A program made the position numbers and the translations under genes. DNA of 64,000 nt from Hymenobacter jeollabukensis (lineage in GTDB: Bacteria > Bacteroidota > Bacteroidia > Cytophagales > Hymenobacteraceae). The notes under the pieces were generated by a model. It ran no database searches. It worked only from the letters and a program-made list of their open reading frames with translations, and had not been told where the DNA came from. Position 1 is the first letter of the stretch; every line of letters starts with the position of its first letter. The stretch is taken from positions 806,001-870,000 of the forward strand of contig NZ_VAJM01000001.1 in NCBI RefSeq assembly GCF_005771675.1, in the 5' to 3' direction. Positions 29,775 through 35,195 of the stretch are shown here, in pieces.

Positions 29775-30611
29775 TTAACCGCGCCGCCCGCTCTGTTTGG
29801 CCGCGCTGTTGAGGTTCACAGCTTCCTCGGCCTGTTCTTCTTCCGACATTTCCGGTGCCAACGGGTGGTTTTCCTCCGGCTGCGCGGCCGGCGCCTGGTG
29901 CCCGTTGTCTTCCTGCTGCAGCTTTTCCAGCAAGACCTGGGTGCCAGCGGTCAGCACGGCCTTGTCGCGCTGGTAGATGTGCTGGAACTCGTTTAGGTCT
30001 TCGGTGCTCACCTCCAGGTCTTTCAGCAGGCCCTCGCGGATGTCGTACACCAAGCCGTGCAGCTTGGGTGGGTTCTGGCGCTTGCGGGCGTTCTGGATAA
30101 TGGTGGTCTTGGCCAGGTTGCGCACCTGCTCGATGACGTTCAGCTCGACCAGGCGGCGCAGGCGCTCCTCGTCGTCCTTGATGCGCAGCAGCTCGGTTTC
30201 GTGCAGCCGGATGACGTCGCGAATGTTGGTCAGCCAGTTGTCGATGAGGCCGTACTGGTTGTTGGAAGCCGCCGCAGCCACGCCACCGCAGCCGTAGTGG
30301 CCCACTACCATGATAACCTCCACTTCCAGCACTTCCACCGCGTACTGCAGCACCGACAGCAGGTTCATGTCAGTATGCACCACCAGGTTGGCGATGTTGC
30401 GGTGGGTGAACATTTCGCCCGGGCCGGTGCCGGTGATGCCCGAGCCGGGCACACGCGAGTCGGAGCAGCCGATGAAGAGGTAGCGGGGTTTCTGGCCCAG
30501 CGAGAGTTTTTCGAAGTATTCGGGGTCTTTCGCCAGTTGGTCTTTCACCCAGCGGCGGTTGCCTTCGAGAATTCGTTGCATGTGGGGAGGGGTGTTCTTG
30601 GGAATGGCCAT
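29775..30611 (-). CDS. beta-carbonic anhydrase with acidic tail
   Basis: This 278-residue enzyme interconverts CO2 and bicarbonate in the cytosol. Zinc ligands Cys49, His105 and Cys108 and the Asp51-Arg53 dyad are in CSDSRV and GHYGCGG. The loop after the dyad (GSGITGTGPGEMFTHRNIAN) is slightly unusual; most relatives have NEI at this point. A tail of about 60 residues, rich in Glu, Gln and Ala (EEEQAEEAVNL), extends beyond the catalytic fold. It is 76 bp downstream of the SulP transporter and in its operon, as in known bicarbonate-uptake pairs. Confidence 0.95.
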   Translation of the reverse strand: MAIPKNTPPHMQRILEGNRRWVKDQLAKDPEYFEKLSLGQKPRYLFIGCSDSRVPGSGITGTGPGEMFTHRNIANLVVHTDMNLLSVLQYAVEVLEVEVIMVVGHYGCGGVAAAASNNQYGLIDNWLTNIRDVIRLHETELLRIKDDEERLRRLVELNVIEQVRNLAKTTIIQNARKRQNPPKLHGLVYDIREGLLKDLEVSTEDLNEFQHIYQRDKAVLTAGTQVLLEKLQQEDNGHQAPAAQPEENHPLAPEMSEEEQAEEAVNLNSAAKQSGRRG

Positions 30612-30687: not shown

Positions 30688-32301
30688 TTAGTGGCCCGCC
30701 AGCTGCACTTGCGGAATGCTGCGCAGCTCCAGTTGCACGCCGCGGTCGGCGGCGCTTTGGCGGAAGTTTTCGATGGCTTCGAGCACATCGTAATCAATGG
30801 TGACGGAATCGGAGCCGTCCAAAATTACGCGTGTTCCGGGCTGAAAGCGGTCTAGGGTAGTGGTAATGGCGGCTTTGTTGAGGAAGGTTACGTGCTCGGA
30901 GAGCTTCACGTGCACGGTACCGGGCAGATGATCAGGCTCGTAGTGGAAAAACAGCGCCGACTCGGCGTTGGCCTTCAGGATGAAGAAAGCGGCCACGGCC
31001 AGGCCCACGCCCACGCCCTTGAGCAGGTCGGAGGCCAAAATGGCTACCACCGTCACCACGAAGGGCACGAACTGCGCCGCGCCCAGGCGCCACTGGCCCG
31101 AGTACAGGGCCGGCTTGGTGAGCTTGTAGCCCACCAGCAGCAGCACCGCGGCCAGGGCCGAGAGCGGAATCAGGTTGAGCACGTCGTCGAGGAAGAGCAC
31201 CGCCAGCAGCAGCAGCACGCCGTGGATGAAGGCCGAGAGGCGCGACTGGGCCCCGGCGCCCACGTTGGCCGAGGAGCGCACGATGACGGCCGTCAGCGGC
31301 AGCCCGCCCAGCAGGCCCGAGAGGGAGTTGCCGGCACCCTGAGCCAGCAGCTCGCGGCTGGTGGGCGTGCGGCGCTTCTGCGGGTCGAGCTTGTCGACGG
31401 CTTCCACGCTCAGCAGCGTTTCCAGCGAGGCTACCGCCGCAATGGTGGCGGCCAGTAGGTACACGCCCGGGCCCTTGGTGAGCACCGACCAGTCGGGGAA
31501 GCGTAGCACCTTGCTCAGATCGTCGAGGCTGCTGATGCTCGGCAGGTTCACGAGGTGGGCGGTTTGCACCTGCCACTCGGGGCGCAGCGCCCCCAGCAGC
31601 TCGTTGATGCCGATAGCCGCCAGCACCACCACCAGCGCCCCGGGCAGCAGCTTGAGCACGGGCACGCGCTTGATAAACGGCTGCTCCCAGATCAGCAGCA
31701 CCGACAGCGAAATCAGGCCGATGAGCATGGCCCCGGGCTGCAGCTTGGAGGCGGCGCGCTGAATCTTGTCCAGCGTCCCCACGAACTCCGACTCGAACAG
31801 GTCCAAGTCCTTGAAAAAGTCTTCGCGCCCGCCCAAGAAGTGCGGTATCTGCTTCATCAGTAGAATAATGCCGATAGCGGCCAGCATTCCGCGGATGACG
31901 GAAGTGGGGAAGTACATGCCGATAACGCCGGCCTTGAGCAGGCCCAGCGCGAACTGCATTACCCCGGCCAGCACTACGGCCACCAGGAAGGCCTCGTAAC
32001 TGCCCATTTTCTGAATGCCGCCCAGCACGATGGTCGTCAGACCGGCGGCGGGGCCGCTCACGCTCAGCTGCGAGCCGCTGATCCAGCTTACCACCAGCCC
32101 GCCAATGATGCCCGCAATCAGGCCCGAAAGCAGCGGAGCGCCCGAAGCCAGCGAAATGCCCAAGCACAGCGGCAGCGCCACCAAAAACACCACCAGCCCG
32201 GCCGGCAGGTCCTTGCCTAGGGTAGAACCCAGGCGCCGCGGTTGCGGGGCGTTGGCCGTCATGTGCGGCTTCGGGTCCGGAACGATTTTGAATGCTTCCA
32301 T
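30688..32301 (-). CDS. SulP-family anion (likely bicarbonate) transporter
   Basis: The protein has about 537 residues: a SulP membrane domain of 12-14 helices (GLVVFLVALPLCLGISLASG near the start, MGSYEAFLVAVVLAGVMQF) followed by a C-terminal STAS domain (about residues 440-537, with VILDGSDSVTIDYDVLEAIE). Placing it directly before a carbonic anhydrase suggests bicarbonate (BicA-like) rather than sulfate transport. That is inference. The start may be ATG 32301 or ATG 32262 (MTANAPQPRR). A triple direct repeat lies 105-133 bp upstream. Confidence 0.92.
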   Translation of the reverse strand: MEAFKIVPDPKPHMTANAPQPRRLGSTLGKDLPAGLVVFLVALPLCLGISLASGAPLLSGLIAGIIGGLVVSWISGSQLSVSGPAAGLTTIVLGGIQKMGSYEAFLVAVVLAGVMQFALGLLKAGVIGMYFPTSVIRGMLAAIGIILLMKQIPHFLGGREDFFKDLDLFESEFVGTLDKIQRAASKLQPGAMLIGLISLSVLLIWEQPFIKRVPVLKLLPGALVVVLAAIGINELLGALRPEWQVQTAHLVNLPSISSLDDLSKVLRFPDWSVLTKGPGVYLLAATIAAVASLETLLSVEAVDKLDPQKRRTPTSRELLAQGAGNSLSGLLGGLPLTAVIVRSSANVGAGAQSRLSAFIHGVLLLLAVLFLDDVLNLIPLSALAAVLLLVGYKLTKPALYSGQWRLGAAQFVPFVVTVVAILASDLLKGVGVGLAVAAFFILKANAESALFFHYEPDHLPGTVHVKLSEHVTFLNKAAITTTLDRFQPGTRVILDGSDSVTIDYDVLEAIENFRQSAADRGVQLELRSIPQVQLAGH

Positions 32302-32405
32302 AGGGCGGATCAACCAAAACCGGGTCATTACCGCTTGCGACGCTGCAAGCTAGACGCACTTCCCGATCCTAAGCCCAAAGGTTCCTCACCCGTCTTAAGC
32401 TCCCG

Positions 32406-32434
32406 TTAAAAGGGTATTAAAAGGTGATTAAAAG
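32406..32434. promoter_or_regulatory. triple TTAAAAG direct repeat, possible OmpR-type operator
   Basis: TTAAAAG occurs at 32406, 32417 and 32428, exactly 11 bp apart with 4-bp spacers. This 7+4 layout is that of PhoB/OmpR-family binding sites. A related pair lies upstream of the nearby response regulator. Confidence 0.55.
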
Positions 32435-32473
32435 CGTGATGGGGTGAGTAACGGTAGCCGCAGAAACCAGAAC

Positions 32474-32667
32474 GTCATCCTGAGGCGTAGCCGAACCGCA
32501 GGACGGCGTAGCCAAGGACATTCCTCGCATCCTACCCCGCCGCTGCCAGCAACGCGCAGACGCATGTTATAAGCGCAGCCACCACGTCCTGACGATTGGG
32601 CGTTGGCGGCTGCGCTTAGCAGTTCGTGCAAGGTGCGAGGAAGATCCTTCGCTCTGCTCAGGATGAC
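32474..32667. repeat. 194-bp nested palindromic repeat element
   Basis: The outer arms are GTCATCCTGAG (32474) and CTCAGGATGAC (32657). Inside, AAGGAcaTTCCTCGCA mirrors TGCGAGGAAGATCCTT, and TAAGCGCAGCCACC mirrors GGCGGCTGCGCTTA. There is no coding sequence. It resembles the GTCATnnnGAG repeats at 46617-46854. Confidence 0.7.
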
Positions 32668-32691
32668 CGGCTATTTTACTGCGTCATTCCA

Positions 32692-34077
32692 TCAGGCCCG
32701 CGGCAGCTCCAGCACTACGCGGGTGCCTTCGCCCAGCTGGCTTTCGACGTGAATGGCACCGTGGTGCAGCTCCATAATCTTGTGGGTGAGCGGCAGGCCG
32801 ATGCCGTGGCCAGGCACGCCGCGGGCGTTGTCGGCGCGGAAGAAGGGCACGAACACCTGCTGCCGGTCGGCCTCGCTCATGCCTACGCCGCGGTCCTGCA
32901 CTTCCAGCAGCACCCGGCCGGGGCGGGCGCGCAGGGTCGCCATGATGGGGTGCTCGGCCCCGCGGGAGAATTTGCAGGCGTTTTCGAGGATGTTGAGCAC
33001 GGCCGAGAGCAGCAGCGCCTCGTTGCCGCGTACCAGGGCGTCGGGGGCTTCGGGCGGCAGGTGAAAGTCTAGGTCGATGCGGCAGGTGGGGTGGCGGCGC
33101 TGCAGCTCCTCGTGGGCCTGCAGCAGCAGCTCGTCCATGTGCAGGGGCTTCAGCGGCACCTGCGAAGGGTCGTCGGAGGCGCGGGCAATCTGCAGCAGGC
33201 CGTTGGCGAGGTCCTTGAGCAGGCGGGCCGCGTCGAGGGTGTTGCGCAGCACCTGCTGGTAGCCCTCGGCGGTGCGCGGCTGCAGCAGGGCCACTTCCAG
33301 CTCGCCGATGAGCACCGTGAGCGGGGTGCGCAGCTCGTGCGAGGCGTCGCGCACGAAGGTGCGCTGCCCGGCGAAGGCCGTTTCGAGGCGGTCGAGCAGG
33401 CTATTAAAGGTGCGCGCCAGCTGCGACACCTCGTCCTGGCCCTCGGCCCCGGAAAGGCGGCGGTGCATATCGGAGGCCGTGATGCTGCCCATTTCCTGCA
33501 CGGCCCGGCGCATGGGGCTCAGCGCCTGCCCGGCAAATACCCAGCCGCCGATGCCCGTCAGCACCATCGACACCAGCAGGCCGATGCCCAGCACGCTGCG
33601 CAGGGTGCCCAGCTGCCGCTGGCTGTCGGTATCCACCGACCACGCCGCCACCAGGTAGCGGCCGCCGTTGGGGGCGCGGTAGTGCAGGCCGAGGGTGTAG
33701 TGCCAGCCCGCGTCGCGGCGCAGCAGCGGCTCGGCAATGGTGGTCAGCCAGCCGGCCGGCACCTCCCGGCTGGTGGCCTGGCCCTCGCGGAAGACGACGC
33801 GCCCGGCCGCGTCGTAAATGCGCACTTCCTCGTCGGGCAGGGTGCGGTAGAGCTGACGCAGGTAGCGGGTGTAGGCGGCGCGGTGCCGCTCGTCGGCCTG
33901 CGGGTGCTGCCCGTCGAAGTACACGTGGCCGACTACCCGGGCGCGGCTGCGCAGCGTTTCGGCAAAAAACTGGCTGCGCGAGTAGTAGGTGAAGCCGTAC
34001 ACCAGCGCCGAAAACAGCAGCAGCGTAACGGCCACGATGGCCGCGTACTGCAGCGCCAGCCGCAGACGAATTGACAT
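32692..34077 (-). CDS. sensor histidine kinase
   Basis: This 461-residue inner-membrane kinase has helix 1 (about residues 10-31), a periplasmic sensor of some 130 residues, helix 2 (about 161-184), HAMP, the phospho-accepting His247 in DASHELRTPL, and a HATPase domain whose N and G boxes are recognisable (NILENACKF, DRGVGMSEADRQ, GHGIGLPL). It passes phosphate to the response regulator encoded upstream on the same strand. The signal is unknown. A period-8 TCACC array lies directly before its ATG. Confidence 0.95.
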   Translation of the reverse strand: MSIRLRLALQYAAIVAVTLLLFSALVYGFTYYSRSQFFAETLRSRARVVGHVYFDGQHPQADERHRAAYTRYLRQLYRTLPDEEVRIYDAAGRVVFREGQATSREVPAGWLTTIAEPLLRRDAGWHYTLGLHYRAPNGGRYLVAAWSVDTDSQRQLGTLRSVLGIGLLVSMVLTGIGGWVFAGQALSPMRRAVQEMGSITASDMHRRLSGAEGQDEVSQLARTFNSLLDRLETAFAGQRTFVRDASHELRTPLTVLIGELEVALLQPRTAEGYQQVLRNTLDAARLLKDLANGLLQIARASDDPSQVPLKPLHMDELLLQAHEELQRRHPTCRIDLDFHLPPEAPDALVRGNEALLLSAVLNILENACKFSRGAEHPIMATLRARPGRVLLEVQDRGVGMSEADRQQVFVPFFRADNARGVPGHGIGLPLTHKIMELHHGAIHVESQLGEGTRVVLELPRA

Positions 34078-34081
34078 AAGC

Positions 34082-34210
34082 GGTGAGATAGTGAGGTGGT
34101 GAGGTGGTGAGTTTGATGTTGGGGAGGTTGGTCCTGCGCAACTGACGCAGACCGCGCAGCCTTACGCCAGCCGCACGGCACTCACCAGTTCACCACCTCA
34201 CCATCTCACC
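34082..34210. repeat. palindromic element with 8-bp-periodic TCACC/GGTGA arms
   Basis: The arm at 34082-34111 (units GTGAGATA, GTGAGGTG, GTGAGGTG) and the arm at 34181-34210 (CTCACCAG, TTCACCAC, CTCACCAT) are imperfect inverted repeats, 27 of 30 bases matching. The middle shares TTGATGTT, GCGCAGCC and CGGCACTCAC, in that order, with the reverse complement of 54365-54465. It fills the gap between the response regulator and the kinase. Confidence 0.7.
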
Positions 34211-34888
34211 TCATTCATTGACTTTGGCTACGTAACCCATGCCCACCAGGGTGTGAATGAGCTTGGGCGTGAAGTCCTTGTCGATTTTCTTGCGCAGGAA
34301 GTTGATGTACACGTCGATGACGTTGGAGCCGGTGTCGAAGGAGGTTTCCCAGACATGCTCCAGGATGTCGACGCGGGAGACGACGCGGCCCTGGTTGCGC
34401 AGCAGGTAGTGGAGCAGGGCAAACTCGCGGGCGGTGAGCTGCACGGGCTGGCCCGCGCGCGTCACCACCTTGCTGACGGGGTCGAGGGTGAGGTCGGCCA
34501 GGCGCAGCTGGGGCTGGGCGGGCTGCTCCTGCCGCCGCCGGGCCAGCGCCCGGATGCGGGCCAGCAGCTCCTGAAACGCGAAGGGCTTGACGAGGTAGTC
34601 GTCGGCGCCGGCGTCGAGGCCGCGGATTTTATCGTCCGTCTCGCCCAGGGCCGTGAGCATCAGGATGGGCACGGCGGGGTTGTGGGCGCGCACCTGCCGG
34701 CACACTTCCAGCCCGCTCAGGCCCGGCAGCAGCTGATCGAGAATGATCAGGTCGTAGGAGGTGGATAGGGCTTGCCGCAGGCCCAGCAGCCCATCGGCCG
34801 CCACGTCGACGGCGTGGGTTTGTTCGCTCAGGCCTTTTTGCAGAAAGGCCGCCACTTTGGGCTCGTCTTCAACCAGGAGAATCTTCAT
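34211..34888 (-). CDS. OmpR-family response regulator
   Basis: This 225-residue cytosolic regulator has a receiver domain with phospho-acceptor Asp51 (LIILDQLLPG), Thr79 and Lys101 (DDYLVKPFA), and a C-terminal winged-helix DNA-binding domain (LTAREFALLHYLLRNQGRVV, SNVIDVYINFLRKKID). The start is ATG 34888 (MKILLVEDEP). It is upstream of the histidine kinase and is the first gene of the pair. A paired CTTTAAT repeat lies 63-80 bp upstream of its start, consistent with self-regulation. Confidence 0.95.
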   Translation of the reverse strand: MKILLVEDEPKVAAFLQKGLSEQTHAVDVAADGLLGLRQALSTSYDLIILDQLLPGLSGLEVCRQVRAHNPAVPILMLTALGETDDKIRGLDAGADDYLVKPFAFQELLARIRALARRRQEQPAQPQLRLADLTLDPVSKVVTRAGQPVQLTAREFALLHYLLRNQGRVVSRVDILEHVWETSFDTGSNVIDVYINFLRKKIDKDFTPKLIHTLVGMGYVAKVNE

Positions 34889-34950
34889 ACGCGCAATGAA
34901 TACGCGGTCGAAGGTAGGCGGTTGCCGGCGCTTTGGGCGCACCTCGTCCA

Positions 34951-34968
34951 CTTTAATGCGTCTTTAAT
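34951..34968. promoter_or_regulatory. paired CTTTAAT direct repeat, possible autoregulatory site
   Basis: CTTTAAT occurs at 34951 and 34962, 11 bp apart with the spacer GCGT. On the minus strand it reads ATTAAAG-N4-ATTAAAG, close to the ATTAAAAG units before the SulP gene. Confidence 0.5.
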
Positions 34969-35035
34969 ACTACGCTACGAGGGGAGTTACAACAAAAACT
35001 ATTACAAATTATTAATGGAATAAGTAAAAAATAAC

Positions 35036-35066
35036 TTGACTCTTAGATTTAAGTCCTATATGTTTA
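35036..35066 (+). promoter_or_regulatory. promoter of the exopolysaccharide operon
   Basis: TTG at 35036 and TATGTTTA at 35059 are 20 bp apart, a good fit to the Bacteroidota TTTG-N19/20-TAnnTTTG pattern, within a strongly AT-rich stretch (34,970-35,080). It predicts a leader of roughly 120 nt before the ATG at 35196. The rest of the 307-bp gap (34889-35195) holds no gene. Confidence 0.65.
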
Positions 35067-35195
35067 AGGAAAAATTACATCAACATGACTCTTCAACCCT
35101 TCTTGCGCTGTTAGGCTTCTTCGGGCAGGCATCCGCGCCACGGGTTGCCCGCTCCTCAGCAGCCTATTTGTAATTAAGCCAACTCCACCACCACC

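Follow-up and report, generated by a model that had tools for sequence, protein, structure and literature searches.

Operators of the PhoB/PhoP/KdpE type are built of head-to-tail direct repeats, in which 7-bp units are separated by 4-bp spacers. The PhoP protein of M. tuberculosis, a member of this family, depends on just this unit and spacer length, and it occupies runs of three and of four consecutive motifs (PMC4832192). An 11-bp period is also found in the PmrA (BasR) box, which consists of CTTAAT/TTTAAT-type half-sites and where, in box1, a 5-bp spacer lies between the hexamers (PMC3973317). A four-unit array upstream of a SulP gene in Hymenobacter jeollabukensis, within the 64,000-nucleotide stretch of DNA analysed here (the window), shares the direct-repeat geometry of the PhoB/PhoP/KdpE-type operators but differs from them in having TTTTAAY units, four as a rule, and a SulP-carbonic anhydrase pair as target. 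Its TTTAAT-N5-TTTAAT layout is nearly identical to that of the PmrA box, although PmrA boxes are formed of two imperfect half-sites and the regulator encoded here is CusR-like. The array is very likely the operator of this neighbouring OmpR/PhoB-type regulator, which would thereby control the SulP transporter and the carbonic anhydrase. Nothing was found in the open-licence literature on two-component control of a SulP-carbonic anhydrase pair, nor on these repeats in Hymenobacter. The mechanism is a known one; the regulon appears undescribed in that literature.

The genes concerned lie on the minus strand in the order response regulator (34211-34888), partner sensor histidine kinase (32692-34077), SulP-family anion transporter (30688-32301) and beta-carbonic anhydrase (29775-30611), with a polysaccharide-export gene running from 35196 in the opposite direction to the regulator. 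The regulator has the receiver domain (Pfam Response_reg) and winged-helix Trans_reg_C domain of the OmpR/PhoB family, and its phospho-acceptor D51, together with T79 and K101, is intact and invariant. The kinase has a CusS-like architecture of HAMP, HisKA and HATPase_c domains. For both proteins the closest family models are those of CusRS/CopRS/CzcRS, yet the scores fall under the curated cut-offs and the target is an anion transporter with a carbonic anhydrase rather than metal efflux. Identification of the regulator as a heavy-metal CusR/CopR/SilR protein was rejected on its TIGR01387 score (257 bits against 279.2), and that of the kinase as CusS/CopS on its TIGR01386 score (187 against 292.6) and on the absence of the conserved metal ligands from its sensor. 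PmrA/BasR was rejected for the regulator as well (NF007928, 170 bits against a cut-off of 330).

The SulP protein combines a Sulfate_transp domain well over its cut-off (191 bits) with a marginal STAS domain (21.1 bits against 22.6), as befits a SulP anion transporter, and its best NCBIfam model is DauA/SulP, under the cut-offs. It is unlike cyanobacterial BicA, an identity that was rejected at 98 bits against a cut-off of 880 (NF050096). Its named relatives come from Hymenobacter (H. edaphi and Hymenobacter sp. 15J16-1T3B being closest), Solirubrum and Adhaeribacter, and alignment shows that the ATGGAAGC start at 32301 is common to the close relatives; an alternative start lies at 32328. The next gene encodes a beta-carbonic anhydrase (Pro_CA, 171.5 bits; carbonate dehydratase model NF007756, 253.6 against a cut-off of 251), an arrangement like that of known SulP-carbonic anhydrase pairs and fusions.

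Two intergenic intervals of the locus hold repeats of other kinds. Between regulator and kinase (34082-34210) there is a 31-nt inverted repeat built of GGTGAGGT-type 8-bp repeats, and GTGA/TCAC stretches resembling it are also found beside paralogous regulators. Between the kinase and the SulP array (32468-32675) lies a repeat element with the inverted ends GTCATCCTGAG and CTCAGGATGAC, which has 83 matches in the genome (itself and many partial ones included) and is not found at this place in congeners. This element is a MITE-like insertion that has left the SulP array intact.

The array itself, located between the end of the kinase gene and the SulP gene, comprises four units centred on TTAA and spaced at exactly 11 bp, on the minus strand at 32394-32433. 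The three 11-bp-spaced units reported in the first-pass annotation are indeed present at 32404-32434, where the plus strand reads GTTAAAAG GGT ATTAAAAG GTG ATTAAAAG, and a fourth, CTTAAG at 32394-32399, had been overlooked. Read in the direction of SulP the sequence is TTTTAAT-cacc-TTTTAAT-accc-TTTTAAC-gggag-CTTAAG, where unit 1, the farthest from SulP, occupies 32427-32433, unit 2 32416-32422 and unit 3 32405-32411, and after 10 bp it is followed by AACCTTTG. The layout is that of a 7-bp unit with a 4-bp spacer, in place of the N3/4 spacer around ATTAAA(A)G units given earlier. In an alignment of 123 arrays, three of them from SulP paralogues, the TTAA cores are invariant, the units end in a pyrimidine, unit 4 keeps the same 11-bp register with the consensus CTTAAT/C, and TAnnTTTG follows at a single fixed distance.

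For Bacteroidetes sigma factors, this octamer has been published as the -7 element (PMC7366714). Its family consensus over 123 loci at a fixed distance identifies it as the primary-sigma -7 box of the SulP promoter, with TA at 83% and 97% and TTG at 92-97%; the window's own box, AACCTTTG at 32376-32383 on the minus strand, is one base off. A -33 TTTG is not prominent in the family column statistics of the SulP promoters, and unit 4 of the array overlaps the -33 region. Unit 4 thus stands at the position of the -33 element, as the last operator unit does at promoters activated by PhoB-type regulators. The geometry of the array appears to fit binding by an OmpR/PhoB-type protein to direct repeats with a period of about 11 bp.

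The pattern is rare. Allowing up to three mismatches, the SulP pattern has only two matches in the window, which overlap, against a shuffle mean of 0.07, and the three exact occurrences of YTTTAAYN4YTTTAAY in the window all fall within the SulP array and a two-unit site upstream of the regulator. The whole 6.18-Mb genome holds 11 exact copies of this two-unit pattern, and the reversed control has 0. When up to two mismatches are allowed, the three-unit pattern has three matches in the genome, namely two registers of the array and one weak unrelated match, and the full array is found at the SulP promoter only. The four-unit array is a real, non-chance feature of the sequence; the two-unit site is real as well and rather unlikely to be chance.

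All eight genomes of the genus have regulator, kinase and SulP close together and the array in place, even as SulP identity falls to 73%. Across the family, a SulP gene was detected in 138 of the 150 Hymenobacteraceae genomes, and 124 of the 137 SulP loci scored are orthologous copies. The array, called at 24 or more of 27 positions where shuffles from a dinucleotide model score 13-21 (mostly 14-19), is kept in 120 of these 124, with unit number, spacing and distance to TAnnTTTG all unchanged. The kinase gene adjoins SulP just upstream in 119 of the 120; in the exception (G062) kinase and regulator are on a different contig from SulP and the array persists. None of the four array-less orthologous loci has a neighbouring kinase (Fisher p = 5e-7 for the association, shared ancestry ignored). 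A lack of conservation upstream of orthologous genes would have counted against the proposed link between regulator and SulP, and what is found is an array that is widely kept and that is missing where there is no regulator.

The losses are informative about this link. Three genomes (G097, G137 and G058) have SulP with neither the array nor a regulator orthologue, their best regulator match being at most 65% identical, as paralogues elsewhere are, or missing, and a second SulP copy in G093 is without both its own regulator pair and the array. SulP orthologue and regulator are both missing from G082 and G084. Where the regulator lies 28 kb from SulP on the same contig (G127), regulator, SulP and array all persist. 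In four genomes (G043, G113, G079 and G091) SulP has been deleted and regulator, kinase and array persist, the array now preceding the carbonic anhydrase or the next gene, which is quinone-oxidoreductase-like. Three more genomes (G032, G036 and G132), with SulP missing or disrupted, no longer have the array, and the regulator pair still present there may have other targets or be in decay. A further locus, L401 of G138, is a decaying system caught midway, with a frameshifted regulator, only a fragment of SulP and an array still at 26/27. The co-loss of array and regulator amounts to few independent events. Outside the family, some 70 scored SulP relatives (29-55% identity) show no array and no adjacent orthologous regulator pair; in two Methylovulum loci the adjacent regulator is only distant (36%) and runs in the opposite direction. 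All of this evidence is comparative, and a conserved neighbourhood would by itself be no proof of control; exact geometry and co-loss carry the weight, and they strongly support control of SulP by the neighbouring regulator.

Since the array is kept in more than 100 species and lost with the regulator, it is most likely this regulator that switches the SulP-carbonic anhydrase pair on. The partner kinase would phosphorylate the CusR-like regulator, two dimers of which would sit head-to-tail across the four half-sites (TTTTAAY), each a 7-bp unit followed by a 4-bp spacer. Recruitment of RNA polymerase by the bound regulator, with activation of SulP and carbonic anhydrase as the outcome, is proposed because unit 4 takes the place of the -33 element, with 10 bp between it and the -7 box downstream. 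The same overlap with the -33 region would also suit a repressor that covers the promoter when it occupies the array. Repression is nevertheless unlikely, given that the array sits on the -33 side and leaves 10 bp free before the -7 box, resembling activating PhoB-type sites, and that the lack of a prominent -33 TTTG suggests a promoter in need of help. Nor is the array at all likely to be a mere DNA-shape element, such as a curved or AT-rich promoter up-element that serves no specific regulator. Its T-rich units do recur near the helical period; the TpA step within TTAA, however, is flexible, which sets it apart from bending A-tracts, and the unit count, the 11-bp phase and the pyrimidine preference are all fixed in an array that vanishes with the regulator.

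A further question is which member of the regulator family reads the array. The recognition helix of the adjacent regulator, GSNVIDVYINFLRKK, is essentially invariant among 117 orthologues, and the sensor of the kinase is highly variable. In another family, two loci (L260 and L261) encode regulators with the near-identical helix DTGTNVIEVYINFLRKK next to a TTTTAAY array, whose TTTTAAT units precede an outer-membrane efflux gene. Paralogous SulP-carbonic anhydrase-regulator loci (L135 and L136) have altered regulator helices and YTCTAAY units; there, SulP and carbonic anhydrase are apparently one frame and the YTCTAAY array ends before CTACCTTTG. Similar two-unit sites adjoin other two-component and efflux genes of the H. 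jeollabukensis genome (C7:104693, C7:107096 and C5:80224), and arrays elsewhere in the order precede efflux genes (outer-membrane efflux, HlyD-type) or stand beside a heavy-metal-domain protein, with a CusS-like kinase adjacent in two of the loci from other families. The site at C5:80224 (L013, about 1484-1518) has three units, CTTTAAC, TTTTAAT and TCTAAT, upstream of an RND efflux membrane-fusion-like gene and 3.4 kb from a regulator paralogue of 58% identity. With such motifs near other regulators, another OmpR-type protein, for instance a metal-efflux CusR paralogue, could bind or share the array, leaving the adjacent pair as no more than a conserved neighbour. This is improbable, as G137 and G058 possess paralogous regulators and yet have neither the adjacent-type regulator nor the array, and as the paralogues differ in their helices (VNYLRNK, VSYLRKK), with no full three-unit TTTTAAY array within 1.5 kb of the paralogues of 57-66% identity. 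Binding by the adjacent regulator is the preferred reading, and related arrays before efflux genes in other families suggest that the TTTTAAY motif is probably an old property of the CusR-like regulator group, of which the SulP link would be a family-level re-use.

Self-control by the regulator, the other half of the regulon that had been proposed, fares less well than the link to SulP. Two ATTAAAG units with an 11-bp period do precede the regulator, as ATTAAAG-ACGC-ATTAAAG in the direction of the gene (34951-34968, minus strand; CTTTAAT GCGT CTTTAAT on the plus strand), 34 bp upstream of a -7-like box, TACCTTCG at 34909-34916, that is conserved in congeners. The repeats are indeed shared by the two genes but in opposite orientation: YTTTAAY follows the direction of the SulP gene and runs against that of the regulator gene. 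The two-unit site is kept only in H. jeollabukensis (G000, 14/14 positions) and its two closest species (G002 and G006, 13/14 each, with diverged flanks). It is absent from the other five genomes of the genus, whose regulators are 89-96% identical, and nothing comparable is present in 116 family regulator promoters, an absence that could point to a chance occurrence. Chance is still a rather unlikely explanation, with 11 exact sites in 6.18 Mb implying roughly 3 in 10,000 for a given 250-bp promoter, and with 13/14 positions retained by the two closest species amid otherwise diverged sequence. In these three species the two-unit site probably lets the regulator act on the promoter of its own gene as well. 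The adjoining interval towards the polysaccharide-export gene (34970-35080) is strongly conserved in congeners, with TATTACAAATTATT, TTGAC and GTCCTATA, and is probably the promoter or operator of the exopolysaccharide operon.

What, then, might be transported and sensed? Bicarbonate is a plausible substrate of the SulP protein, given its pairing with a beta-carbonic anhydrase and the in-frame arrangement of paralogous loci, where a single open frame of 790-843 aa spans SulP and carbonic anhydrase. The inorganic-carbon reading is strengthened by a locus in another family (L255), where SulP and the gene for the DabA inorganic-carbon pump flank a four-unit array. The likeness to CusS raises metal as a signal, which was judged unlikely since no Cys, His or Met is well conserved in the kinase sensor, H51 (82/119) being the only common such position. 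No solved structure matched the sensor in a search by sequence. The structure of the sensor was predicted with moderate confidence (mean pLDDT 77, pTM 0.62), and in a fold search with this prediction only an integrative WalK-YycH model scored as significant, followed by the sensor domains of PctD, CusS, CzcS and WalK. The modelled fold resembles extracellular sensor folds including those of WalK and CusS, and names no signal.

The TTTTAAY and YTCTAAY arrays, taken together with the helices of their regulators, offer a natural series from which to learn how DNA is read by this regulator family. For the biology of the family, a tentative possibility is that control of the supply of bicarbonate or CO2 was taken over, once and in the ancestor of the Hymenobacteraceae, by a two-component system of the metal-efflux type, in which case the kinase would respond to CO2, pH or bicarbonate and switch the SulP-carbonic anhydrase pair in these heterotrophic Bacteroidota. 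To our knowledge, the sensing of CO2 or bicarbonate shortage in heterotrophic bacteria is poorly known. The locus offers a concrete regulator, a 40-bp operator of exact geometry, a target operon in more than 100 species and natural loss variants, all of which make the proposed control directly testable.
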